Source: Crassaminicella profunda (lineage in GTDB: Bacteria; Bacillota; Clostridia; Peptostreptococcales; Thermotaleaceae). From it: DNA of 64,000 nucleotides. Of the stretch, positions 3,525 to 64,000 are shown in pieces. The translations under genes were made by a program, and so were the position numbers. The notes below the pieces were generated by a model. It made no database searches, was not told the origin of the DNA, and worked only from the letters and a program-made list of their open reading frames with translations. How positions within the stretch are numbered: position 1 is the stretch's first letter; every line of letters starts with the position of its first letter. The DNA lies in assembly GCF_019884785.1 (NCBI RefSeq), contig NZ_CP082326.1:799355-863354 (forward strand), written 5' to 3'.

Positions 3525-4913
3525 ATGAGTAACGCAAAAGAATATGTAAAAGGTCTTATGGAAAGAGCAAGAAAAGCACAAGCTATTGCAGATACATTTA
3601 CACAAGAGAAGGTAGATGAGCTTTGCACAGCTATCGCTTGGAATATTGTAAAGCCTGAAGTGGCAGAAAAAATCGCAACAATGGCAGTTGAAGAATCTAC
3701 TCTTGGAAACTATGATGGAAAGTATGCAAAATTAATGACAAAAATCCGTGGCGGTCTTCGCGATATGAAAGGCCAAAAATCAGTAGGCGTAATCGAAAGA
3801 GATGATGAAAAACAAATTATCAAGGTTGCAAAGCCAGTTGGAGTAATTGCTGCATTAATACCTTGTACAAATCCAGAAGCAACACCAGTACTTAAAGCAA
3901 TGTTTGCAATTAAAGGAAGAAATGCCATTATACTAGCACCACATCCAAGAACAAAAAATACAAACACTTATATTGTAAATATTGTTCGTGAAACCCTTAA
4001 AAAATATGGAGCACCAGAAGATTTAGTAATCCCTGTTGAGCCAGAGCACGTATCAATGGATGTAAGTGGAGAATTAATGGCACAAGCTGATCTAGTATTA
4101 GCTACTGGTGGTGGCGGATTAGTAAAAGCTGCTTATAGTTCAGGAACACCTGCTTATGGTGTAGGTCAAGGAAATGCTGTTACAGTAGTAGACGAAACAG
4201 TAGACCTAAAAGACGTTGCAAACAAAATTATGAGAAGTAAAACTTTTGACTTTGCAACAAGCTGTTCTACAGAAAATTCATGTGTAGTACAAGAAGGAAT
4301 TTATGATGAATTCATTAAAGCTATGGAAGCTGAAGGTGGATATTTAGTAAAAGGTGACGAAAAAGAAAAGCTTGAGCATGCTATGTGGCATGATGGACAC
4401 TTAAGTCCTGCAATCGTTGCACAATCACCAGAAGCTATTGCGAAAGAAGCTGGAATTGAATTACCAGAAGGAAAAACTTTCTTCATGGTAGAAGAAACTG
4501 GAATCGGAGCAGATTATTTATTCTCAGGAGAAAAATTATCTGTAGTAACTACACTATTTAAATATGGTGAGTTTGGGGAAGCAATCGATAAAGTAAATGC
4601 TATTACTGCTTATCATGGAAGTGGACACTCTTGCGGAATCCACACAAATGATGAAGAAAGAATTTTAGCATTAGCATTAAATACAAAAACAAGTCGTTTG
4701 ATGGTAAGACAACCACAATGTTTAGCAAACAGTGGAGCATGGACAAATGGCATGCCAATGACACTAACACTAGGATGCGGTACTTGGGGTGGAAATATTG
4801 CATCTGAGAACGTAACTTGGAAACACTTAATCAATGTAACTTGGGTATCTTCACCAATCGAATCTACACAGCCAACTGATGAAGAATTATTTGGCGATAT
4901 CATGAACCAATAG
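3525..4913 (+). CDS. CoA-acylating aldehyde dehydrogenase (EutE/SauS-like) in the iolA position
   Basis: 462-residue NAD-dependent aldehyde dehydrogenase of the acylating, EutE/sulfoacetaldehyde-dehydrogenase-like branch. It has an N-terminal helical region, the cofactor motif TNPEATPVLKA (about 115-125), a GATP-like glycine motif (LATGGGGLV, about 192-200) and the catalytic cysteine in FDFATSCSTENS (Cys247). It is not a classical IolA, which is a longer methylmalonate-semialdehyde dehydrogenase. In this operon the aldehyde from the IolJ step is malonate semialdehyde, or acetaldehyde after decarboxylation, so this enzyme probably makes malonyl- or acetyl-CoA (inference). A close paralogue, mostly identical by eye, is at 56984. 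The perfect operator sits just upstream, and iolJ begins 9 bp after the stop. Confidence 0.85.
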   Translation: MSNAKEYVKGLMERARKAQAIADTFTQEKVDELCTAIAWNIVKPEVAEKIATMAVEESTLGNYDGKYAKLMTKIRGGLRDMKGQKSVGVIERDDEKQIIKVAKPVGVIAALIPCTNPEATPVLKAMFAIKGRNAIILAPHPRTKNTNTYIVNIVRETLKKYGAPEDLVIPVEPEHVSMDVSGELMAQADLVLATGGGGLVKAAYSSGTPAYGVGQGNAVTVVDETVDLKDVANKIMRSKTFDFATSCSTENSCVVQEGIYDEFIKAMEAEGGYLVKGDEKEKLEHAMWHDGHLSPAIVAQSPEAIAKEAGIELPEGKTFFMVEETGIGADYLFSGEKLSVVTTLFKYGEFGEAIDKVNAITAYHGSGHSCGIHTNDEERILALALNTKTSRLMVRQPQCLANSGAWTNGMPMTLTLGCGTWGGNIASENVTWKHLINVTWVSSPIESTQPTDEELFGDIMNQ

Positions 4914-4922
4914 GATAAAAAT

Positions 4923-5762
4923 ATGTTAGTAAATTTAAATGAAGTTTTAAAGGGAGTGGCAAAATCTGATTTTGCCATTCCTGGATTTAATGTATTCGGA
5001 TATGAAGATGCTGTAGCGGTGGTGCGTGCAGCAGAAGAATTAAACACCCCAGTTATATTGATGACAAATAAAGTAGCTGTATCACATATGCCTATAGAAA
5101 TTTTAGCAAAAATACTTTGTAGTGTTGCTGAAAGTGCAAAAGTACCAGTATGTGTTCACTTAGACCATGCTACAGAGTTTGATTTGATTGCTCAAGCCAT
5201 TAAAGCTGGATATACTTCAGTAATGTTTGATGGTTCTCAATTACCTTTTGAAGAAAATATTGAAAAAACAAAAGAAGTTGTAAAATTAGCTCATCCTTGT
5301 AATGTAACGGTAGAAGCAGAAATCGGAGCAGTAGGATATAGTGATCCAGCTCTTAATGTAAATGCAAGATATACAGAACCAGAAGAAGCAAAGACATTTG
5401 CTGAAAAGACTGGAGTAGATGCATTAGCAGTTGCTATTGGAACGCTACATAGAATGGAGACTCAAGGAGCAGAAATTCAATACGACCGTTTAGAAGCTAT
5501 TGAAAAGCTTACAGATACACCTTTAGTGATTCATGGTTCTACAGGAATTAAAGATGAAGACTTAAGAAGAATTGCTAAATATTCTGTGGCAAAGGTAAAT
5601 ATTGGAACAGCCCTTCGTATGGTATTTGGAAATACTATGAGAGAAGAGATGAACAACAATCCTGAAGAATTCGATAGAATTAATCTATTCCAAAGGTCTA
5701 TGATAGAAGTACAAAAAGAAGTTAAAAAGAAAATGGAGCTTCTAGGCATTGAAAGAAAGTAA
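4923..5762 (+). CDS. iolJ: Class II aldolase, 6-phospho-5-dehydro-2-deoxygluconate aldolase
   Basis: 279-residue class II fructose-bisphosphate-aldolase-type TIM barrel. It would split 6-phospho-5-dehydro-2-deoxygluconate into dihydroxyacetone phosphate and malonate semialdehyde. Zinc-ligand motifs are visible: CVHLDHA (about 78-84), VEAEIGAVG (about 131-139) and LVIHGSTG near the end. Its place between the aldehyde dehydrogenase and iolB supports IolJ over glycolytic aldolase. The upstream gene ends 9 bp before the start, so translation is probably coupled. Confidence 0.88.
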   Translation: MLVNLNEVLKGVAKSDFAIPGFNVFGYEDAVAVVRAAEELNTPVILMTNKVAVSHMPIEILAKILCSVAESAKVPVCVHLDHATEFDLIAQAIKAGYTSVMFDGSQLPFEENIEKTKEVVKLAHPCNVTVEAEIGAVGYSDPALNVNARYTEPEEAKTFAEKTGVDALAVAIGTLHRMETQGAEIQYDRLEAIEKLTDTPLVIHGSTGIKDEDLRRIAKYSVAKVNIGTALRMVFGNTMREEMNNNPEEFDRINLFQRSMIEVQKEVKKKMELLGIERK

Positions 5763-5776
5763 GAAGGGAGCAAGAC

Positions 5777-6568
5777 ATGAAAATAAGACAATCAGAACCT
5801 TTCAAATATGGATATAATAGTATTACAGAAATGAACGGAAAACATAGTAATATGTTAATGGACTTTGGTATCTTAAAAATGAAAAAAGCAGATACAGAAA
5901 GTTCAAGTGAAGATTTAGAAAGAGCTTACCTATTAATTCATGGAGAAGTTACTCTAGAATGGGAAGATAATAAAGTAACAGCTAAGAGAGAAGACTGTTT
6001 TTCAGAAGATCCTTATTGCTTACATGTACCAGCTAAGGTAGAGGTAAAGATTACAGCTCATAAAGATGATACAGAGCTTGCTGTTCAAAAAACAGACAAT
6101 GAAAAAACGTTTGCCTCAAAGCTTTATACACCAGAAGAATGTAGAAGTGAACAGTTTGGTGCAGGTACATTAAATGAGACTGCTACAAGAACGGTAAGAA
6201 CTATTTTTGATCATGGTAATTCACCAGATGCAAATTTAGTGATCGGAGAAGTTATTAATCATCCTGGAAAATATTCAAGTTATCCACCACATCATCATCC
6301 ACAACCAGAAATATATCATTATCGTTTCTATCCAGAGCAAGGATATGGTCTTTCAACAGTAGGGGATGATGCATTTGTAGTGAAAAATAGAGATACAATT
6401 GCTATTCCAGGAGGACTTGTACATCCTCAAACAGCAGCACCGGGATATGCTATGTATTATGTTTGGATGATTCGTCATTTAGAAAATAAGCCATTTGATG
6501 AGCGTATTTTTGTTGATGAACACAAATGGTTATTAGATAAAGATGCGAAAATATGGCCCAATAAATAA
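5777..6568 (+). CDS. iolB: 5-deoxy-glucuronate isomerase
   Basis: 263-residue bicupin-type isomerase converting 5-deoxy-glucuronate to 5-dehydro-2-deoxygluconate. The family's histidine-rich metal motif is visible (YPPHHHPQPEIYHYRF, about 170-185), as is the C-terminal cupin region with AIPGGLVHPQTAAPGYAMYY. The length matches the family. It starts 14 bp after iolJ with the ribosome site agaaggga. An operator-like half palindrome (AAAACGTTTGC, about 6104-6114) lies inside the gene and may be chance. Confidence 0.95.
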   Translation: MKIRQSEPFKYGYNSITEMNGKHSNMLMDFGILKMKKADTESSSEDLERAYLLIHGEVTLEWEDNKVTAKREDCFSEDPYCLHVPAKVEVKITAHKDDTELAVQKTDNEKTFASKLYTPEECRSEQFGAGTLNETATRTVRTIFDHGNSPDANLVIGEVINHPGKYSSYPPHHHPQPEIYHYRFYPEQGYGLSTVGDDAFVVKNRDTIAIPGGLVHPQTAAPGYAMYYVWMIRHLENKPFDERIFVDEHKWLLDKDAKIWPNK

Positions 6569-12108: not shown

Positions 12109-13413
12109 TTACTCTTTTTCAGGATTGATAAATTTTGGTTTGCTGATAGGCTGTGATAGATTTATTTCACCAAAAGTATTTACAGCTTGACCATCCACAA
12201 GAATTTGTACTTTTTCAATACCTGTAACACTTGTGAAGCTATACAAAATAGCATCAAGCATCATTTTTTGTAAATCTATTCGACTTTGATAAGCATATAA
12301 AAATTCTTTGTTAAAGTTTAAAGTAAGAATATTATTATTTTGTGTATAATCTATAAGTTCTATGTTTTTAGGAATAGGAGAAACTAGATTGTTGCATGTA
12401 TTTTCATTGATTTTACAAGTTTTTAATCCATGCAGAATCCTTTCAACGAGAGGTTTTTCAGAAGAATTCTCTACCTTTATGGGAACAAGTAAAATTCTTG
12501 TCTGATTTGTGTCCATTCCTAAATAAACTTTTGGCTGTGTATTTTTATAATAGATATCTTTTGTACGATAACTATAAAATAGGTTGTCCGATTCTTTTCC
12601 GTTCACGAAAAATTTAACTTGATCAATACCTTTAATAGAGGTAAAAGAATTTACAAAACTTTCAAGGGCAAAGGTACCTATTCTTGGGTCTGTATTATAT
12701 TTTCCTAGGTCTTTTGGTAAAAATACTAGGACCCTATTTTTTTGAACACGTAGTTTTATTCTATCTGGAATAGGGGAAACAGAACCTAAAATATTCGAAC
12801 CACTATGGAGATTATTAACGATTGTACCTAAAGGGGTACGATTTTGTTTTACAAATTTTGTGATGGGTACAAGATATTCATTCTTTGTATCAGGATAATA
12901 TAAGGTTAAATTCATCATGCCAAGGGGGAACGTATCCGTTGCTGGAATATATTTTGATAAAGTCGTGTATTGTACTTCTATCTTTAAGGGTTCTATATCT
13001 TTTAATACTTCTGCTGTAGAATAAAGCTTTAATAAATAATTGTCATCAGAAAGATTTAAATTTTCTTTTGATAAATTTAAAGTATAGCGAATGCTATCTT
13101 TTTCGGTAGAAGAAGGCGTTATTATTTTTGATGCATCTACTGTGGAGATTATTTCAGTTTCTTTTATGATCTCTAAAATAAAAGAAGAAGCTAATGCATC
13201 AATAGATAGTTTTTCAGGATTTTTTGTTTCAATCTGAAAATCTATGAGGGTAGGATTATTCAAAGGAGAATCTATAAAAGATTTATAAGAGAGCTGGTCA
13301 TTTTGAGTAGATAGATCAAATGATAAAGCGGGTAACTCTAGATTTAAGGGCATACCTAAAGCTGTAATGCAAATAATAAGTACGATAAAAAGATTAAAAA
13401 TTGCTTTTCGCAT
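12109..13413 (-). CDS. GerMN-domain germination/sporulation protein
   Basis: 434 residues with an N-terminal membrane anchor or signal (about residues 5-24) and an extracytoplasmic body. Two GerMN-type domains can be seen: about residues 165-280 (LTLYYPDTKNEYLVPITKFV) and about 305-425 (RILLVPIKVENSSEKPLVERIL), each ending in a SFTSIKGIDQVKF-like segment. GerM-type proteins act in sporulation or germination in Bacillus. The N-terminal ~150 residues resemble an Ig-like stalk. It is a single-gene unit with its own terminator. Confidence 0.8.
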   Translation of the reverse strand: MRKAIFNLFIVLIICITALGMPLNLELPALSFDLSTQNDQLSYKSFIDSPLNNPTLIDFQIETKNPEKLSIDALASSFILEIIKETEIISTVDASKIITPSSTEKDSIRYTLNLSKENLNLSDDNYLLKLYSTAEVLKDIEPLKIEVQYTTLSKYIPATDTFPLGMMNLTLYYPDTKNEYLVPITKFVKQNRTPLGTIVNNLHSGSNILGSVSPIPDRIKLRVQKNRVLVFLPKDLGKYNTDPRIGTFALESFVNSFTSIKGIDQVKFFVNGKESDNLFYSYRTKDIYYKNTQPKVYLGMDTNQTRILLVPIKVENSSEKPLVERILHGLKTCKINENTCNNLVSPIPKNIELIDYTQNNNILTLNFNKEFLYAYQSRIDLQKMMLDAILYSFTSVTGIEKVQILVDGQAVNTFGEINLSQPISKPKFINPEKE

Positions 13414-13557
13414 GGAATCACTCCTTTGTATGTTGAAACTTGTCTAATAAATAGCTTATAATACCATTATAAGTGATTTATGCAAAAGGTAAAAGGAATA
13501 GAATGCGACAAATTATGAAAAATTTTGATAAAAATAATAAAATAAGGAGTAACGTAG

Positions 13558-32790: not shown

Positions 32791-32804
32791 TTTATCATAA
32801 GTTA

Positions 32805-33020
32805 ATAAGCACAAAGCTTTAGGTACCATTTTGGTATAATAGGGAAGTACGGTGAGAACCCGTCACAGCCCCCGCTACTGTAAGTGATGACGAAACCTCA
32901 TAATTGCCACTGTGAGAATGGGAAGGCAGAGGGAGTAGGTTGATTCATAAGTCAGGAGACCTGCCTATAGTGTAAGTTATTACCTTCGGTGGGAAGGAGA
33001 GGCGTTTGTTTATATTAAGC
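32805..33020 (+). promoter_or_regulatory. Cobalamin (B12) riboswitch without a downstream gene
   Basis: Class hallmarks in order: TAATAGGGAA (about 32838), GGTGAGAACCCGTCACAGCCCCCGC around 32852-32876, CTACTGTAA and the B12 box AAGTCAGGAGACCTGCC (32949-32965). The expression-platform region TACCTTCGGTGGGAAGG follows. The aptamer looks intact. It is followed by an intrinsic terminator at 33023 and by a gene on the opposite strand. The next plus-strand gene is 1.5 kb away and has its own promoter. Confidence 0.93.
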
Positions 33021-40297: not shown

Positions 40298-40557
40298 GCT
40301 GATCACCTCTTTTTATAGCTTGTTAATAGTATCTACTTTAAAAAGGTACAATATGTCTAGTAGTATTATGCAGAAATGCATAGTATTGTAAGTTTTTCTA
40401 TTGGAAATTTTAGAAAACATACGAATAGATAATTTAAGGATAAAGTATACATTCCTTATTGTATGAAGAAAAGGCTTATGCTAAAATAAAATTGGATAGT
40501 ATCGTAAGAACTATACCTTTTATAAATTATTAAAAATAAAATTTAATAGATCTGCTT
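40298..40557. other. AT-rich intergenic stretch upstream of the panC leader
   Basis: 260 bp between the divergent SASP gene and the structured panC leader. It must hold the promoters of both genes. No strong -35/-10 pair stands out and no coding frame is convincing. Confidence 0.5.
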
Positions 40558-40670
40558 TGAGCCTTTAGGACAGAGACAGTTGAGTATAAAGAAATTTTCA
40601 TGCCTTGCGAGCCTATACTCAGCAAGGTATTTTTGTATAAATTTTATTCTTTAATCTTTCTGTGGGCTCA
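40558..40670 (+). promoter_or_regulatory. Structured leader RNA of panC with a pseudoknot or terminator switch
   Basis: An outer stem TGAGCC (40558-40563) with GGCTCA (40665-40670) is extended by ACAGA (40570-40574) with TCTGT (40659-40663). Inside, TGAGTATA (40581-40588) pairs with TATACTCA (40614-40621), while CCTTGC (40603-40608) pairs with GCAAGG (40622-40627), which is followed by TATTTTTG. The two inner helices cross, giving either an H-type pseudoknot or two exclusive states, one of them terminator-like. The panC ribosome site follows at 40681. Metabolite control of pantothenate synthesis is plausible. It could be a member of the described pan motif, which I cannot check. Confidence 0.6.
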
Positions 40671-45571: not shown

Positions 45572-45720
45572 TAAAAAACTTCTTTCAACAGTGAAAGAAG
45601 TTTATATTCGAATGCTCTCATCTGTCGGTAACATACCGCTGGAATTGGCACCATTGCATGATTTATGCTGGTTGCCGGGTTTCAAAGGGCCAGATCCCTC
45701 CACCTCTCTGGATAAGAATA
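45572..45720 (-). promoter_or_regulatory. SAM-I (S-box) riboswitch with terminator
   Basis: On the minus strand: TTATCCAGAGAGGTGGAGGG, then CTGGCCCTTTGAAACCCGGC and AACCAGC, then GGTGCCAATTCCAGC, AGATGAGAGC. These are the textbook S-box elements in order. The terminator AAACTTCTTTC-actgtt-GAAAGAAGTTT with a T run closes it (45572-45604). When SAM is plentiful, the metF operon is turned off. Confidence 0.97.
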
Positions 45721-56813: not shown

Positions 56814-56868
56814 CTTTAGTAAAACTTTAACTTCTCTTGATATAGATTTTAAGAGAAGAATTTATAAT
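56814..56868 (+). promoter_or_regulatory. Promoter with four 11-bp-spaced Pho-box-like repeats (aldehyde dehydrogenase 2)
   Basis: Half-boxes begin at 56814 (CTTTAGTAAAA), 56825 (CTTTAACTTCT), 56836 (CTTGATATAGA) and 56847 (TTTTAAGAGAA), each exactly 11 bp apart. The fourth stands where a -35 would be, 16 bp before a perfect -10 TATAAT (56863-56868). The same design appears at 61854-61908. Direct repeats with 11-bp spacing feeding into a -10 are typical of OmpR/PhoB-family activation. Confidence 0.7.
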
Positions 56869-56983
56869 TATATTTGAGAGAAGGGATTTAAAGTGTGTAA
56901 AGAATAGTTTTTAGTGGGTTATAGATTAAGAGATTTAAGTAGTTTATGATGTAATTTCAATATTATTTAAAGGAGGAATTAAA

Positions 56984-58372
56984 ATGAATCAAAATGTAAA
57001 AGAATATGTGAAAAGTCTGATAGACAGAGCAAAAAAGGCACAAGGGATTGCAGACAAATTCACACAAGAAAAGGTAGATGAGCTTTGTATGGCCATTGCT
57101 TGGAATATTGTAAAACCTGAAACAGCAGATAAAATTGCCACAATGGCAGTAGAAGAATCTAATCTTGGAAACTATGAGGGAAAATATGCAAAGCTTATGA
57201 CAAAAATCCGCGGTGGTCTTCGCGATATGAAAGGTCAAAAATCAGTAGGGGTTATTGAAAGAGATGATGAAAAGAAAATCATGAAAATTGCAAAGCCTGT
57301 TGGGGTAATTGCAGCTCTTTTACCTTGTACAAATCCAGAGGCAACACCCGTCCTAAAAGCAATGTTCGCCATTAAAGGTAGAAATGCAATTATACTAGCA
57401 CCCCATCCAAGAACAAAAAATACGAATACGTATATTGTAAATATTATGCGTGAAACCCTTAAAAAATATGGAGCACCAGAAGATTTAGTTATTCCAGTGG
57501 AACAAGTATCTATGGATATAAGTGGAGAATTAATGGCACAAGCTGATTTAGTACTAGCTACTGGTGGTGGAGGGATGGTAAAAGCTGCTTACAGTTCAGG
57601 AACACCTGCATATGGGGTTGGACAAGGAAATGCAGTGACAGTAATAGATGAAACTATAGACTTAAAAGAAACTGCAAATAAAATTATGAGAAGTAAAACT
57701 TTTGATTTTGCAACAAGTTGTTCTACAGAAAATTCATGTGTCGTGCAAGTTGGGATCTATGATGATTTCATTAAGGCTATGGAAGTTGAAGGTGGATATT
57801 TAGTAAAGGGAGACGAAAAAGAAAAACTTCAAAATGCTATGTGGATTGATGGACACTTAAGTTCAAAAATTGTTGCACAAGCACCAGAAGTAATTGCTGC
57901 TGAGGCGGGCATTGTTCTTCCAGAAGGGAAAAAATTTTTCATGGTTGAAGAAAGCGGTATAGGAGCAGATTATCCATTCTCAGGAGAAAAATTATCTGTT
58001 GTAACAACGCTCTTCAAATATGGTGAATTTCAGGAAGCAATCGATAAAGTAAATGATATTACTTCTTATCATGGAAGAGGTCATTCTTGTGGAATTCATT
58101 CAAATGATGAAGAAAGGATTTTAGCATTAGCATTAAATACAAAAACAAGTCGTGTAATGGTGAGACAACCACAATGCTTAGCAAACAGTGGAGCATGGAC
58201 AAATGGTATGCCTATGACCTTAACTTTAGGGTGTGGGACTTGGGGAGGAAATATTGCATCTGCAAATGTAAACTGGAGACACTTGATTAATGTAACTTGG
58301 GTATCAGCACCCATTAAAGCTACTCAGCCAACGGATGAAGAATTATTTGAAAAATTTATGTTAGAAGAATAG
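56984..58372 (+). CDS. CoA-acylating aldehyde dehydrogenase, second copy
   Basis: 462 residues, a close paralogue of the enzyme at 3525, mostly identical along the whole length by eye. The catalytic cysteine lies in FDFATSCSTENS and the cofactor and glycine motifs (TNPEATPVLKA, LATGGGGMV) are intact. One small difference is a two-residue shorter loop near residue 172 (VEQVSMD instead of VEPEHVSMD). It is EutE/SauS-like and would turn an aldehyde into an acyl-CoA with NAD. It has no inositol genes around it; its promoter matches that of the phosphonatase-like gene at 61993, so acetaldehyde or a related aldehyde released by that enzyme is the suggested substrate (inference). Confidence 0.85.
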   Translation: MNQNVKEYVKSLIDRAKKAQGIADKFTQEKVDELCMAIAWNIVKPETADKIATMAVEESNLGNYEGKYAKLMTKIRGGLRDMKGQKSVGVIERDDEKKIMKIAKPVGVIAALLPCTNPEATPVLKAMFAIKGRNAIILAPHPRTKNTNTYIVNIMRETLKKYGAPEDLVIPVEQVSMDISGELMAQADLVLATGGGGMVKAAYSSGTPAYGVGQGNAVTVIDETIDLKETANKIMRSKTFDFATSCSTENSCVVQVGIYDDFIKAMEVEGGYLVKGDEKEKLQNAMWIDGHLSSKIVAQAPEVIAAEAGIVLPEGKKFFMVEESGIGADYPFSGEKLSVVTTLFKYGEFQEAIDKVNDITSYHGRGHSCGIHSNDEERILALALNTKTSRVMVRQPQCLANSGAWTNGMPMTLTLGCGTWGGNIASANVNWRHLINVTWVSAPIKATQPTDEELFEKFMLEE

Positions 58373-58398
58373 ATCACCATTTTGGTGATCTATTTTTA
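58368..58398 (+). terminator. Terminator of the second aldehyde dehydrogenase gene
   Basis: ATAGATCACCA-ttt-TGGTGATCTAT followed by TTTT. Confidence 0.88.
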
Positions 58399-58416
58399 TA
58401 ACATAAAAGGATAGGC

Positions 58417-60216
58417 TCAAAGGTAAAGGGGTAAGGTGAAAGAAAAAGTACTACCTTGTTGGGTAGGATTATTTTTTGCCCATATACGTCCACCATGATA
58501 GGATACAATTTCTTTAGCAATGGATAACCCTAAACCCCGACCCTTTGAAACTTGAGATTGATTTCCTTTATAGAAGCGATCAAAGAGAAAGGGAAGATCT
58601 TCTGGAAAAATACCTGATCCGTTATCTTGAATACTTATGATGACTTCATGGCTAGGAAGAGGGTGTAGGGAATGATCTTCAAGGCTATATACGTTTTTAA
58701 GATGATCTTTATTTACTAAATTAGATTTAGCATGATAAGGGACAATAGTATAATAAATGACGATGGTCCCACCAGTGGGAGTATGCTTGATCGCATTAAA
58801 AATTAAATTGGAAAATACTTGTTCCATTCGATTCGCATCAATGGTTACAATGAGACGATGATCCTCTTGCAATTCAAAAGGGAGATGCAGTTCAAAGTTT
58901 AGCCCTGCATTTTTTACGTCTAATTCATACTTGTGGTAGAGCTGTTGAATGAATTGATGAATAGGAATTTCATATAATTGAAAGTCTATTTCTTTAGCTT
59001 CTAATTGAGTTAGTTGAAATAAATCATTGATTAAACGACTAAGGCCTAAAACTTTATTGTGAATAAGTTTTAGATATTTTTTAAAATCATTTGAATTAGT
59101 AATGACACCATCTAACATAGCTTCTATATATCCTTGAATTAAAGTGATAGGAGTTCTTAGTTCATGAGATACATTGGTAATTAGCTCATAACGCGATTTT
59201 TCCATTCGAAAAAGATCGTCTTCTACTTTTTTACGGGCTGTAATATCTCGAAGAATTCCTTCTATAGCTATTACATTTCCCGATTTGTCTGAAATAATGG
59301 TATGATGCAACTCACCCCATATGAGAGATCCATTTTTACGAAATAAACGTAGTGTGATAGATGGCGAAGAAGATTTTACCGGGTTCTTGAAAGCTTCGTG
59401 AAGGCTATGAAGATCATCTGGATGTATTTGATGAAAAAATAGCTTAGGATTTTCATATAGTTCTTCTGGAGTATAATCCATCATGGGTATAATTGCTGGG
59501 CTTATATACTCAAATTTTGAAATAGGTTTAGGATAATATAGGTAAATAAGATCTTTAGCATTTTCAGCTAAGAGGCGAAAACGTTTTTCACGCTGAATTA
59601 AATCTATTTTATTTCTTTTAAAATAAATAAGCAGGATTAGGATACTAAGGATATTGATGAATATAGCACCGCCTAAATAACTCCAAGGGGCTAACCAAAA
59701 CTTGGGATGAATAAAGGGATAATATCCTTTATAGATGCCCCAAATGATAAACATAAATCCTGTAACATATTTTTCGTGAAATTTTATTTCAAATGCATAT
59801 AAAATAAACAATAATCCATTGTATACAGAGATAAAACATAAAAAAATTGCAGAGTGTATGATTAGAGGTAGAAATAGAGTTGATGAAAAAGAAGCAATGA
59901 GGATGCATAAACTATTCATAATAGAAAAATATATCCAAAATTTTGGGATAGATTGTTTTAAAAATATATAAGAACCTACAAGAAAGAGCAAGCTAATGAA
60001 TAGATAGACCCCTTGCTTTGAAATAATGTAAATAGAAGTATCTAATCCATCAAATTTGCAAAAATCGAGAATAAAACTTAAAGAATAAACCATCCAACCA
60101 AATCCCCAAAGACCCATATAATATTCACGATTTTGTAAAAAAATATAAAAATATACTAAGCCAAGAACAAAGGTGACACTGCTCATTGCAATGATGGAGT
60201 GAGTAATTAAAAACAT
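58417..60216 (-). CDS. PAS-containing membrane sensor histidine kinase
   Basis: 599 residues. Seven or so membrane helices (1-200) form an integral sensor. They are followed by a PAS domain (about 212-335), HisKA with the phosphorylated His351 (ITNVSHELRTPITL), and HATPase_c with N box MEQVFSNLIFNAIKHT, G1 DNGSGIFPEDLPFLFDRFYKG and G2 GRGLGLSIAKEI. No response regulator gene is next to it. It lies between two genes of the proposed phosphonate module, so it may feed an OmpR-family regulator acting on the 11-bp repeats (inference). Confidence 0.93.
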   Translation of the reverse strand: MFLITHSIIAMSSVTFVLGLVYFYIFLQNREYYMGLWGFGWMVYSLSFILDFCKFDGLDTSIYIISKQGVYLFISLLFLVGSYIFLKQSIPKFWIYFSIMNSLCILIASFSSTLFLPLIIHSAIFLCFISVYNGLLFILYAFEIKFHEKYVTGFMFIIWGIYKGYYPFIHPKFWLAPWSYLGGAIFINILSILILLIYFKRNKIDLIQREKRFRLLAENAKDLIYLYYPKPISKFEYISPAIIPMMDYTPEELYENPKLFFHQIHPDDLHSLHEAFKNPVKSSSPSITLRLFRKNGSLIWGELHHTIISDKSGNVIAIEGILRDITARKKVEDDLFRMEKSRYELITNVSHELRTPITLIQGYIEAMLDGVITNSNDFKKYLKLIHNKVLGLSRLINDLFQLTQLEAKEIDFQLYEIPIHQFIQQLYHKYELDVKNAGLNFELHLPFELQEDHRLIVTIDANRMEQVFSNLIFNAIKHTPTGGTIVIYYTIVPYHAKSNLVNKDHLKNVYSLEDHSLHPLPSHEVIISIQDNGSGIFPEDLPFLFDRFYKGNQSQVSKGRGLGLSIAKEIVSYHGGRIWAKNNPTQQGSTFSFTLPLYL

Positions 60217-60452
60217 AGGATCCCTCCCCAGTATATTCAGTTAATTTAAAGGCTATCTTATAGGAGACTAGAATAGTAGTTTAATAAAGGATTCGATGTA
60301 AAATAGTAATTTCCTTTATCTTACAACTATTTTATTGAAGGAGTCACTTAATATAGAAGATCGTTTAAATAAAAAATAAAAGGAAAAGTCTTTTTATATG
60401 GAGAATAGACCCTTATAGGGAAAGTATAATTTTACCAAATAGGGGGATAGGG

Positions 60453-61769
60453 ATGAAAAATACAAAAGTAGTTCAGGGAGAAAGCTTAAAATTTAAAAGA
60501 TATGCCTGGTTTACTTTAGTAGGATTTTCTTTTATGTATGCTTTTGTATATAATGGAAGGTTTAATATGGAATTAGCATTGCCCCTTATGGATAAAGAGT
60601 TACACATGACAAAGACAGAAATAGAGATTTTGACTGCTATATTGTATTGGACATATGCTTTTGGTAATTTTGTAAATGGACGATTAGGGGAAATATTTGG
60701 TTGCAAAAGATTTATTATGGCAGGTGTAATATTAACTGTCCTGACCAATTGGATTGTCAGCATGTCTACATCTATTAGGATTATTATAATTTTATGGGGA
60801 TTGAATGGATTTTTTCAATCAATGATATGGGCTCCTGGGATCAGTTTAATTGCACAATGGTGGCCTAGTGAAAAAAGAGGCTTTGCTACGGGCTTTGCTC
60901 ATGGATTTTCAGGAATGGCACATATTATTTTATGGTTTAGTACAATGGTTACAATGGGGATTTTTCCCCAATATGGATGGCGAGGCTTTTTTGTCATTCC
61001 TGTAATTTTTTTGTTCATCATGTCTTTTGTATATTGGTTTATGAGTAAAGAAAAACCAAGAGCTATGAACCTTTGTGATGATGAAGGGGAAGATGAGATA
61101 TGCTTAGAAAGAGAAAGAGTATATAAAAAGCTGGATTTAAAAGAGGGAAAAATGTTTCCTTATAAGTGCTTATTTACACAATGGCAATTTTGTGTTTGGT
61201 GTGTTATTTCAGCTTTAGCTAGTATTACTAGATATGGATTATTGACTTGGATTCCTCTGTATTATACAAAAAAAATGCATATGCCAATTAAAACAGGTAT
61301 ATTTAGTACATTGGTACTGCCAATGGGGATGGCTCTAGGAACTTTCATTGTACCATGGGCAACGGATCGAATTTGGGGTAGAAATAGAGCCATAGCAATT
61401 ATTATTTGTGGGGCATTGAGTGCTTTGATGGTTTTTATATTTCCTAGTATGATGACGTCTACCACTGCCATCATTACTATATTTTGGTCTGGATTTTTTT
61501 TATATGGAATTAATGGAGTTATTTGGGCGTATTCTATTGATGTAGGTACGAGAGTATTTGCTGGCACAGCAGCAGGGATTCTTGATTGGGCAGCTTATAT
61601 GGGAGCAGCTGTGCAAGCTATGTTTTTTGGATATATTCTGCAAAGGACAGATAGCTGGGCATATGTTTTTGCTGCTATAGCAATGATGTGTATTTTGATG
61701 GTTATTTTGGGGATTATTACAATAAGACAAAAGGGTTTAGGATGTAAAATAGAAGAAGTAAAAAAGTAA
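60453..61769 (+). CDS. MFS transporter of the organophosphate:phosphate antiporter type (GlpT/UhpT-like)
   Basis: 438 residues, about 12 helices. Both arginines that hold phosphate in GlpT have counterparts: Arg36 in helix 1 (YNGRFNMELALP, aligned with R45 of GlpT) and Arg260 in helix 7 (SITRYGLLTWIP, aligned with R269). The family stretch SLIAQWWPSEKRGFATGFAHGFSG is also clear. Substrate: an organophosphate, phosphonate or similar anion; sulfonate carriers in this superfamily look alike. A paralogue begins at 63057 on the other side of the phosphonatase-like gene. Confidence 0.85.
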   Translation: MKNTKVVQGESLKFKRYAWFTLVGFSFMYAFVYNGRFNMELALPLMDKELHMTKTEIEILTAILYWTYAFGNFVNGRLGEIFGCKRFIMAGVILTVLTNWIVSMSTSIRIIIILWGLNGFFQSMIWAPGISLIAQWWPSEKRGFATGFAHGFSGMAHIILWFSTMVTMGIFPQYGWRGFFVIPVIFLFIMSFVYWFMSKEKPRAMNLCDDEGEDEICLERERVYKKLDLKEGKMFPYKCLFTQWQFCVWCVISALASITRYGLLTWIPLYYTKKMHMPIKTGIFSTLVLPMGMALGTFIVPWATDRIWGRNRAIAIIICGALSALMVFIFPSMMTSTTAIITIFWSGFFLYGINGVIWAYSIDVGTRVFAGTAAGILDWAAYMGAAVQAMFFGYILQRTDSWAYVFAAIAMMCILMVILGIITIRQKGLGCKIEEVKK

Positions 61770-61797
61770 AATAGTATATGGATCAATGGAATGAAAA

Positions 61798-61827
61798 CCA
61801 ATCATTAAAATGGATTGGCTTTTTTTA
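61798..61827 (+). terminator. Terminator after the first antiporter gene
   Basis: CCAATC-attaaaatg-GATTGG then CTTTTTTT. Confidence 0.8.
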
Positions 61828-61853
61828 TGGATAAAATTAAGAGAAGTTAAAAA

Positions 61854-61908
61854 ATTTAGAAAAACTTTAACTTGTCTTAAAAAGAACTTTAAATAAGGTT
61901 GCTATACT
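61854..61908 (+). promoter_or_regulatory. Promoter with four 11-bp-spaced Pho-box-like repeats (phosphonatase-like gene)
   Basis: Half-boxes begin at 61854 (ATTTAGAAAAA), 61865 (CTTTAACTTGT), 61876 (CTTAAAAAGAA) and 61887 (CTTTAAATAAG), each 11 bp apart. The fourth starts 16 bp before the -10 TATACT (61903-61908). Box 2 with its surroundings, AAAACTTTAACTTGTCTT, differs at one base from the matching part of the promoter at 56814. An inverted copy of the core, AAGAGAAGTTAAA, lies just upstream (61839-61851). Confidence 0.7.
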
Positions 61909-61992
61909 TGTACTTGAAAGAAGTAATTGAGAAAAAAAGCAAGCATTTTACTTGATGGAAACAAATTTAAAATTTAAAAAGGGGGATTTTAA

Positions 61993-62823
61993 ATGTATAA
62001 CAGAACGTACACAGGAAAGATTCAATTAGCAGTTTTAGATACTGCTGGAACATTTTGTGATGGACCACAGGACTTAAGAAATCGTTGGCCAGAGGATGAC
62101 TTAAGAGGATGTAAAGCACCTGTAGTACCTTTTTATGAAGTATTAAAGAATCACGGTATTGTTTGTGGTTGGAAAGAAATCAGAAAGCCTATGGGTAATT
62201 ATAAACCAGTTCATTTACGTAAATTATTTGAGTTACCTGAAGTTACTGAACAATTCAGAAAAATATATGGGCGTGAGTGGACACAAGAAGATGTAGATGC
62301 ATATTATGAGGAATTCAAACCTTTAATGAGCAAAGTGATTGTAGATCCAGATTTGGCAAAACCAATTAAAGGTGCTGTTGAATGTATTCAAAAATTAAGA
62401 GATGCAGGTATTTATGTTGGATGTGACACAGGGTATGTAGATAAGGATTCAAAGGCGTTAAATAAAGTATTACAAGATACATATGGAATAAAATTTGATG
62501 TAGCTACGAACTCAGAGATTGTTCAAGGTCGTCCTAGTCCATTTATGGTATATGATTGTATGGCTAAAGTAAATGTACATAATATTCATTCAGTAGTAAA
62601 AATAGATGATACAGCTCCAGGAATGAAATGCGGAAATAATGCAGGATGTTGGACAATAGGTCTTTATGCAACTGGAAGTAATAATTATGATATGTTAGCA
62701 GCTTCAAAACCAGATTTCTTAGTTCCTTCAGTAGAATATGTTCCAGATATTATTTTCTATGAAATTGAACCAAGATTGAGAAGAGGCATAAGACCAGGCC
62801 AAGGGATTATAGAAACCATTTAA
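61993..62823 (+). CDS. Phosphonoacetaldehyde-hydrolase-like HAD enzyme
   Basis: 276 residues, HAD superfamily, phosphonatase (PhnX) branch. Asp16 in LDTAGT is the nucleophile position, with the alanine two residues later that marks phosphonatases. RKPMGNYKPVH places Lys71 where PhnX has its Schiff-base lysine, plus His74. CDTGYV (Thr146, Gly147), GRPSPFMVYDCM (Arg180) and KIDDTAPGM (Asp205/206) complete the site. PhnX splits phosphonoacetaldehyde into acetaldehyde and phosphate. Departures: Trp in the first motif is Thr, and about a dozen extra residues follow it, so the real substrate may differ. It has its own repeat-containing promoter and lies between two GlpT-like antiporters. No phnW (the transaminase) is in the window. 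Confidence 0.75.
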   Translation: MYNRTYTGKIQLAVLDTAGTFCDGPQDLRNRWPEDDLRGCKAPVVPFYEVLKNHGIVCGWKEIRKPMGNYKPVHLRKLFELPEVTEQFRKIYGREWTQEDVDAYYEEFKPLMSKVIVDPDLAKPIKGAVECIQKLRDAGIYVGCDTGYVDKDSKALNKVLQDTYGIKFDVATNSEIVQGRPSPFMVYDCMAKVNVHNIHSVVKIDDTAPGMKCGNNAGCWTIGLYATGSNNYDMLAASKPDFLVPSVEYVPDIIFYEIEPRLRRGIRPGQGIIETI

Positions 62824-62945
62824 GAGCAAGAGACGCATCTATATATTGGAGAAATCAGTTAATAGTGTTTAAAGATTGATAATAGAATCAATTGGTGTTA
62901 GGATCATCTCTTATTTATAATAATGATTTTCATAAAATATGTGAG

Positions 62946-63016
62946 AAAACTCCAGTATCTGTTGTATGAATAACCTAGTGTATAGGTTCATTAAACATAG
63001 TACTGGAGTTTTTTAG
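62946..63016 (+). terminator. Large terminator between the phosphonatase-like gene and the second antiporter
   Basis: AAAACTCCAGTA (62946-62957) pairs with TACTGGAGTTTT (63001-63012), followed by TT. The 43-nt loop holds a second hairpin AACCTA-gtgta-TAGGTT. It is bigger than the other terminators here. Confidence 0.8.
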
Positions 63017-63056
63017 ATATTTTACCCACCATGTTAATGATTAAAGGGGGTATTCT

Positions 63057-64000
63057 ATGTCAAAGGGATTTTTAGGATATACAGAGCAAGAAGCAAAAAA
63101 ATTTAAAAAATATGCTTGGATGGCACTTTTAGGTTTTTCTATTTTATATGCATTTTTGTATAACGGTAGATTGAATATGGGTTTAGCATTACCTATGATG
63201 ATGGAAGAAATGGGATGGACCAAAACACAAGCAGGTTTGCTTTCATCTGTATTATTTTGGACTTATGGATTAGGACATTTGGTGAATGGCCGTTTAGGGG
63301 AGATTTTTGGACCTAAAAAGATTATTTTAGTAGGATTATTATTATCTGCAGGTGCAAATTTAATCATTAGTTTTCAGTCTTCTATTGGTTTGATTGCATT
63401 TTTATGGGCTCTTAATGGATATTTTCAATCTATGCTTTGGTCTCCTGGAATTAGTTTGATTACTAAGTGGTGGCCTAGTCATAAAAGAGGATTTGCTACT
63501 GGATTTGCAAATGGGTTTTCAGGAGTCGCCCAAATTATTGTTTGGTTTAGCGTGCTAGCCTCTATTTCTGCGTTTTCTGATTTAGGTTGGAGAGCGGCTT
63601 TTAGAATCCCTTTGATTAGTATGGTTGCTATGGGGGCTGTATATTGGGTTATGGTTAAAGCAAAACCCAGTGATGTAGGGCTTAAAGATTATGAAGAGGA
63701 AGATGAGGGAACGAAAGAACAAGAAGCAGAGTTACAAAGAATCGTACAAGAACGGGGAAAATTATATCCATATATTCATTTATTTAGTCAATGGAGATTT
63801 ATCATTTGGTGCTTTATCATTGCTATATCCAATATTTCAAGGTATGGGTTACTTACATGGATTCCAACTTATTATGTACAAGAATTAAATATGAATGTAA
63901 AATCAGGAATTTTTAGTTCTGTTGTATTGCCTGTAGGGATGGCCCTAGGAACCTTTATTGTTCCTTGGGCATCAGATAAATTTGGTAAAAATGGACGTTT
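63057..64000 (+). CDS. MFS antiporter of the GlpT/UhpT type, 3' end beyond the window
   Basis: The first 314 codons are visible. It is a paralogue of the protein at 60453 (FKKYAWMALLGFSILYAFLYNGRLNMGLALP, WSPGISLITKWWPSHKRGFATGFANGFSG). Both phosphate-site arginines are again present (YNGRLNM in helix 1, NISRYGLLTWIPTYY in helix 7). The start at 63057 has aaaggggg upstream. It probably transports a related substrate or works on a different stage of the same pathway. Confidence 0.85.
   Translation, partial: MSKGFLGYTEQEAKKFKKYAWMALLGFSILYAFLYNGRLNMGLALPMMMEEMGWTKTQAGLLSSVLFWTYGLGHLVNGRLGEIFGPKKIILVGLLLSAGANLIISFQSSIGLIAFLWALNGYFQSMLWSPGISLITKWWPSHKRGFATGFANGFSGVAQIIVWFSVLASISAFSDLGWRAAFRIPLISMVAMGAVYWVMVKAKPSDVGLKDYEEEDEGTKEQEAELQRIVQERGKLYPYIHLFSQWRFIIWCFIIAISNISRYGLLTWIPTYYVQELNMNVKSGIFSSVVLPVGMALGTFIVPWASDKFGKNGR

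Follow-up and report, generated by a model that had tools for sequence, protein, structure and literature searches.

Two genes near the right end of the 64,000 nt stretch of the Crassaminicella profunda genome analysed here (the window; NZ_CP082326.1, positions 799,355 to 863,354) start behind promoters of the same layout, raising the question of which pathway they serve and what turns them on. One encodes a CoA-acylating aldehyde dehydrogenase (ADH; 56984..58372, plus strand, 462 aa) and the other, 5 kb away, a phosphonatase-type HAD hydrolase (61993..62823, plus strand, 276 aa). The promoter design described in a first-pass annotation of this DNA was reproduced to the base: four half-boxes at an exact spacing of 11 bp, with 16 bp from the start of the fourth to the -10. 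In the ADH promoter (56814..56868, plus strand) the half-boxes start at 56814, 56825, 56836 and 56847 (array 56814-56857) and the -10, TATAAT, is at 56863-56868. In the HAD promoter (61854..61908, plus strand) they start at 61854, 61865, 61876 and 61887 (array 61854-61897), with a -10 of TATACT at 61903-61908. We consider it probable that both promoters belong to a dedicated catabolic regulon for 2-aminoethylphosphonate (AEP), made up of uptake, the transaminase PhnW, the HAD hydrolase, the ADH and an OmpR-type switch of its own. The features read directly from the sequences are gene content, conserved catalytic positions, conservation of the candidate operator and its absence at six pst promoters; the substrate and the enzyme activities we infer.

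A pattern built from the two window sites only was scanned across the whole genome (4.59 Mb, a single contig). The source sites were recovered at 0 and 1 mismatches, no site had 2, and five more had 3; the reversed control pattern gave 8 matches in the same genome. Since the pattern derives from its own two sites, the fair test lies in other loci carrying the HAD gene. A box was found upstream of HAD in eight of the ten other loci with upstream sequence, with 1-4 mismatches (L013 and L014, 1; L045, 2; L015, L018 and L047, 3; L019 and L046, 4) and p <= 0.003 for each locus against 1000 shuffles; L020 starts inside HAD and so offers no upstream region for this test. Two Desulfovibrio genomes carry a second, diverged HAD copy (L103 and L104); scored apart, these copies had no box (12 and 11 mismatches). 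Boxed loci include those of termite-gut Desulfovibrio, and L015, L018 and L019 have a GC content of 57 to 62%. The box lies 500 bp from the start codon in L018, 647 bp in L019, and 108 to 199 bp at the other boxed loci. Six boxes, not four, are present in L046 and L047. Over ten promoters the half-box consensus is CTTTAA, the first base being C in 38 of 44 half-sites, and the last box is 16 bp from the best -10 in eight of them and 17 bp in L015 and L019 (both Desulfovibrio); the -10 of L015 is weak.

An unlinked operon, gdhA-MFS2-phnW, has a promoter of this type in both Desulfovibrio genomes (3 mismatches, p about 0.001), MFS2 being a transporter gene that also follows HAD in the window. In a scan of 815,502 strand-bases, each of the nine sites with three or fewer mismatches stands ahead of an AEP gene, of the gdhA operon or of the window ADH. 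The sequences scanned were over 9,000 bases long, some overlapping and most chosen as module-bearing, so the set is enriched in module loci by design and the whole-genome count gives the better base rate. Read as an operator, the array is conserved in two phyla and at unlinked operons of one pathway.

The likeliest controller of the module is a neighbouring OmpR-type response regulator together with a nearby kinase. The kinase gene (58417..60216, minus strand) encodes a membrane protein of 599 aa with PAS_3, HisKA and HATPase_c domains, the proposed sensor of the module. It was first annotated as an orphan PAS histidine kinase; the PAS kinase is there, but it is probably no orphan, as a response regulator gene lies past the window end (65617-66375 in extended coordinates, minus strand). 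The structural model of the kinase is of low confidence (mean pLDDT 60) and has seven helices ahead of the PAS part. The kinase gene adjoins the module in L013, L014, L045 and L046, and also in L047, where a contig end cuts the gene. Its divergent neighbour in the window, L014, L045, L046 and L047 is MFS1 (60453..61769, plus strand), the gene of a GlpT/PgtP-like protein that may be a transporter or a transporter-like receptor. Six module-side regulators (window genome, L013, L014, L045, L020 and L015) have in common the stretch VH[IM]SNLRKKI, which we take to be the recognition helix; the pst-linked PhoP reads VHIRHLRKKI at this place. The L015 regulator gene (5495-6217) lies directly upstream of HAD, and its product has a DNA-binding half of 56.7% identity and a diverged receiver (28.6%). 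A seventh regulator, in L124, shows 56% identity over 234 residues. In the proposed scheme the membrane PAS kinase alongside would phosphorylate the dedicated regulator, which would then bind the four CTTTAA half-sites (six in two relatives) and turn on the HAD and ADH genes; the kinase-regulator pairing, the box-binding protein and the signal are all predicted.

Direct repeats of this kind had at first been read as the mark of PhoB/PhoP-type activation and of phosphate regulation, a reading that is not supported: the module pattern is found at none of six pst promoters (7-11 mismatches, p > 0.06, no better than shuffles), and Pho regulon control was rejected on this ground. A comparison with known Pho genes and with relatives, proposed at the same time and run in part, gave a divided answer, the pst promoters of the six genomes being unboxed while the repeats are kept in relatives. 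Direct repeats at 11 bp are shared by regulators of this family and are by themselves no proof of phosphate control; the PhoP of M. tuberculosis is reported to bind repeats of 7 bp separated by 4 bp (PMC4832192). In both Desulfovibrio genomes the pst region carries TGTCA-n6-TGTCA and the module CTTTAA. The module box is the same in both phyla and the probable Pho box is not, which suggests a regulator travelling with its genes. A global Pho regulon could nevertheless be proposed: when phosphate is scarce, the boxes would be occupied by the PhoP encoded with pst, and the kinase and regulator next to the module would serve another role. In the pstS promoter of the window genome four TTTAACA-type repeats (core TTTAAC) recur every 11 bp and a TATACT -10 follows at almost the distance seen in the module, and the TTTAA core common to this clostridial pst promoter and the module box makes cross-talk with PhoP possible, which tells against a wholly private switch. 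The regulator beside the module is also PhoB-like (TIGR02154, 210 bits, below the cut-off of 296), and the PAS kinase gives PnpS/PhoR-like scores below cut-off. However, a separate PhoP/PhoR-like regulator and kinase are encoded in the pst cluster of the window genome. With the pst promoters unboxed, phosphate control of the module is not supported, and we regard the global arrangement as unlikely.

What a dedicated AEP switch would control is indicated by the genes around HAD. A PhnW-AepZ transaminase gene lies past the window end (64429-65556 in extended coordinates, plus strand), scoring 455.8 bits with TIGR03301 (cut-off 360.8) and also above the PRK13479 cut-off. PhnW-AepZ is above cut-off in all nine HAD genomes tested, a set to which the genomes of L017 and L020 do not belong. 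The order HAD-MFS2-PhnW is kept in L013, L014, L045, L046 and L016; HAD (L047) and MFS2-PhnW (L124) of genome G290 are on separate contigs, and L017 ends after MFS2. In both Desulfovibrio genomes phnW is unlinked to HAD and lies inside gdhA-MFS2-phnW. The L016 cluster has PbfA after PhnW (681 vs 525 bits), and upstream of its HAD lies a gene for a phosphate propanoyltransferase. Phosphoenolpyruvate (PEP) mutase is above cut-off in one of the nine HAD genomes (G029), with weak matches below it in G078, G090 and G298 and no match in the window genome. The ubiquity of PhnW-AepZ, the rarity of PEP mutase and the presence of PbfA in one cluster point together to AEP breakdown; AEP synthesis was rejected as the main role, PEP mutase having no match in the window genome and reaching cut-off in one of the nine. 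PhnW-AepZ next door and in every HAD genome tested, and PbfA in a relative, support the early proposal of a C-P module that takes up a substrate, cleaves it to phosphate and an aldehyde, and converts the aldehyde to acyl-CoA, a reading of the chemistry that holds for the most part.

Other genes accompany these clusters. HAD and MFS2 of L018 are followed by a saccharopine-dehydrogenase-family gene (12323-13489), and gdhA-MFS2-phnW of G298 by another (L122 8913-10079), both in one Desulfovibrio genome and possibly for an AEP-related amine or nitrogen step. A hydantoinase/oxoprolinase-like gene stands between MFS1 and HAD in L046 (6445-8409) and L047 (1199-3157).

In the proposed route, MFS2, a GlpT/AepP-type transporter, and perhaps also MFS1, would import AEP, possibly in exchange for phosphate. 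PhnW would transaminate AEP to phosphonoacetaldehyde, the HAD would cleave the C-P bond by way of a lysine Schiff base to give phosphate and acetaldehyde, and in the window species the ADH would convert acetaldehyde to acetyl-CoA. MFS2, the GlpT/PgtP-like candidate AEP permease, runs from 63057 to the window end at 64000 and on to 64367 in extended coordinates (plus strand). The phosphate-site arginines of GlpT are presumably those numbered R45 and R269. The annotation of two GlpT-like proteins with both arginines agrees with alignment to GlpT (1pw4), in which the L013 copy represented MFS2; both motifs were then seen in the MFS2 of the window genome, as they were in its MFS1. The best family for each was the PgtP subfamily TIGR00881 (152.7 for MFS1 and 137.5 for the in-window part of MFS2, against a cut-off of 407.75), and the NCBIfam scores did not separate MFS1 from MFS2 as receptor and transporter. 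MFS1 may be a Uhp-type receptor, serving kinase signalling and not uptake; what is observed is that its gene adjoins that of the kinase. The region upstream of MFS1 is unboxed while HAD is boxed, which would suit a standing receptor.

The acylating aldehyde dehydrogenase gene annotated at the first pass is present in the window. Its best family is SauS (NF047625), at 543.7 bits against a cut-off of 600; six homologues from differing contexts score alike, and SauS was rejected as its identity. The genome holds two ADH paralogues (86 and 85% DNA identity), one inside an inositol gene run (window 3525-4913) and one just past such a run (L025 7705-9096; G000:C1:219704-221095), gene functions being read from sequence; an acylating malonate-semialdehyde role would fit these paralogues. 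With such close paralogues in its own genome and unboxed homologues in relatives (below), the ADH is a recruit specific to this lineage, joined to the module through its promoter and place. Its simplest substrate is acetaldehyde, which it probably converts to acetyl-CoA. It might instead act on phosphonoacetaldehyde or another beta-anionic aldehyde, forming phosphonoacetyl-CoA in a branch that competes with HAD. The link to SauS, with sulfoacetaldehyde as substrate, would favour this branch, as would the suggestion of malonate semialdehyde from the inositol context of the paralogues and from one homologue lying between dihydropyrimidinase-like and class-III aminotransferase-like genes (functions again from sequence). 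Given the score below the SauS cut-off, shared by homologues of different contexts, no gene for phosphonoacetyl-CoA use noticed, and a simpler substrate in HAD-derived acetaldehyde, we think a competing branch improbable.

The HAD itself was annotated as phosphonatase-like, which structure comparison bears out. Its closest relatives of solved structure are phosphonoacetaldehyde hydrolases (best E 9.8e-32). A model of the protein, with a mean pLDDT of 75 and weak stretches at residues 208-219 and 261-276, has as its first eight fold matches enzymes of this kind or one named 'like' them. Alignment with six canonical PhnX sequences from five genomes of the phylum showed that the catalytic positions of PhnX are retained. 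D16, K71, M67, H74, C40 and R180 are invariant in 11 clade members and presumably serve as the Asp nucleophile, the Schiff-base Lys, and the supporting Met, His, Cys and Arg. Differences from canonical PhnX are a 14-column insert after the nucleophile motif, the loss of the canonical C-terminal stretch, and DD in motif IV where PhnX has GDxxxD. By these sequence traits the HAD falls in a clade of its own, scoring under the PhnX cut-off and predicted to hydrolyse phosphonoacetaldehyde. The clade is rare among the genomes searched, occurring in six of 297 genomes of the order (window genome counted) and two of 348 genomes in the class of one Desulfovibrio genome, neither of these two being new to the set; canonical PhnX is above cut-off in five of 398 genomes of the phylum. 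A scan of genome contigs gave nine HAD loci, one too weak to count, and L021 (35% over 51 residues) was excluded as a relative. The second, diverged HAD copies of the Desulfovibrio genomes (56 and 54% identical) lie beside an iron-containing alcohol dehydrogenase gene (L103, L104 657-2754), and that of G297 has one internal stop codon. The least probable alternative, that the HAD substrate is some other phosphono-aldehyde, or a related compound, formed by PhnW from another amino-phosphonate, could draw on the insert, the lost C-terminal stretch, the altered motif IV, the low PhnX score and the hydantoinase-like gene adjoining HAD in L046 and L047, but it runs against the retained catalytic positions, PhnW-AepZ in all nine genomes, and the finding in one cluster of PbfA, which is described in the same AEP route (PMC8154272).

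Several observations weigh against a dedicated AEP regulon of the composition proposed above. The HAD scores 172.4 bits with TIGR01422 (170.6 in the genome search), below the PhnX cut-off of 220. L016 and L017 have HAD genes with no box upstream (8 and 10 mismatches), and in the window genome MFS1 (7 mismatches), MFS2 (8), phnW (12) and the regulator gene (8) are not boxed themselves. A terminator-like hairpin with a T-run stands between HAD and MFS2 (62950..63014, plus strand), its stem, paired by eye, being conserved in four aligned sequences. In relatives the ADH does not adjoin the module, and none of 24 loci with an ADH homologue, from eight genomes that are related or carry the module, has a box at four or fewer mismatches, these loci including distant homologues down to 34% identity. 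MFS1 is missing from L013, which has the kinase. The six module-side regulators form one side of a branch with support 94/92, short of the starred level. The L015 regulator has no phospho-acceptor, so signalling at that locus must differ; no regulator was found within the 20 kb examined at L046, and none was noticed near the L018 module.

The gene set was at first thought not to belong to a described system, and this holds in part. PhnWX catabolism, the permease AepP and phnWX-pbfA clusters of anaerobes are described, while no description of the regulator or the ADH link was found in the open-access literature searched. The set is a variant of the PhnW/PhnX kind with, most probably, its own switch. 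With that pathway it shares a PhnW-AepZ above cut-off, a HAD with phosphonatase catalytic positions and a linked transporter; it differs in that the HAD is of a rare clade with an insert, below the PhnX cut-off, an acylating ADH is under the same promoter type in the window species, and the hosts are clostridial and Desulfovibrio. UhpABC/UhpT comprises two antiporter-family paralogues, one adjoining a membrane kinase gene, and a response regulator. The module likewise has two such paralogues, one beside a membrane kinase gene, and a response regulator; unlike Uhp, this regulator is OmpR-type, the kinase is HisKA-type, MFS1 is only a putative receptor, and L013 does without it.

AEP has been described as the commonest phosphonate of biological origin (PMC8154272, PMC10590968). 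AepP of Pseudomonas putida is described as a GlpT-related AEP permease required for phosphate-insensitive growth on AEP, and is reported to keep the phosphate-site arginines of GlpT (PMC8316502). MFS1 and MFS2 resemble it as GlpT-related MFS proteins with these residues kept, adjoining phnWX-type genes, a likeness of description; here there are two paralogues, one paired with a kinase gene. The AEP genes of P. putida BIRD-1 are reported to be controlled by PhoBR, NtrBC or CbrAB plus the LysR-type AepR (PMC9311074). The window module similarly has a pathway-linked regulator near phnWX-type genes, but of the OmpR two-component type and with 11-bp CTTTAA arrays, no LysR-type gene being noticed beside it. 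Clusters of phnWX-pbfA are noted in the strict anaerobes Sebaldella termitidis and Clostridium butyricum (PMC8154272), a likeness that rests on gene content (transaminase, phosphonatase and PbfA); among the loci here PbfA was seen only in L016. A 2013 genome paper reported no PhnX homologue in Desulfotignum phosphitoxidans, in agreement with other sulfate-reducer genomes of that time (PMC4046663); two termite-gut Desulfovibrio genomes have a phosphonatase-type HAD and PhnW-AepZ. Among the open-access papers listed, judged by title and abstract start, no dedicated two-component regulator of AEP genes was found, nor, in the open-access literature, a description of an acylating or acetaldehyde dehydrogenase linked to phosphonoacetaldehyde or phnX.

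The gene set, most of which lies in the window, appears to move among distantly related bacteria together with a switch of its own, outside the general phosphate-starvation system. The operator predicts regulon members, assigns a likely job to a kinase-regulator pair, and would make local AEP control in anaerobes testable. A fuller and more tentative picture, which we hold to be possible but doubtful in all its parts at once, is that the PAS kinase and an MFS1 receptor sense external AEP, that arrays of four to six CTTTAA half-sites let the OmpR-type regulator activate the AEP genes, that enzymes, regulator and operator moved jointly between Clostridia and Desulfovibrio, and that in the window species a duplicated dehydrogenase was captured by gain of the operator.

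The hairpin at 62950-63014 shows a paired change in L045 (by eye), and attenuation is possible there. The idea of a known RNA element between HAD and MFS2 was rejected, as an Rfam search at gathering score matched only elements elsewhere in the window: a cobalamin riboswitch (32804-32982, plus strand), a pan motif (40493-40583, plus strand) and a SAM riboswitch (45615-45718, minus strand).

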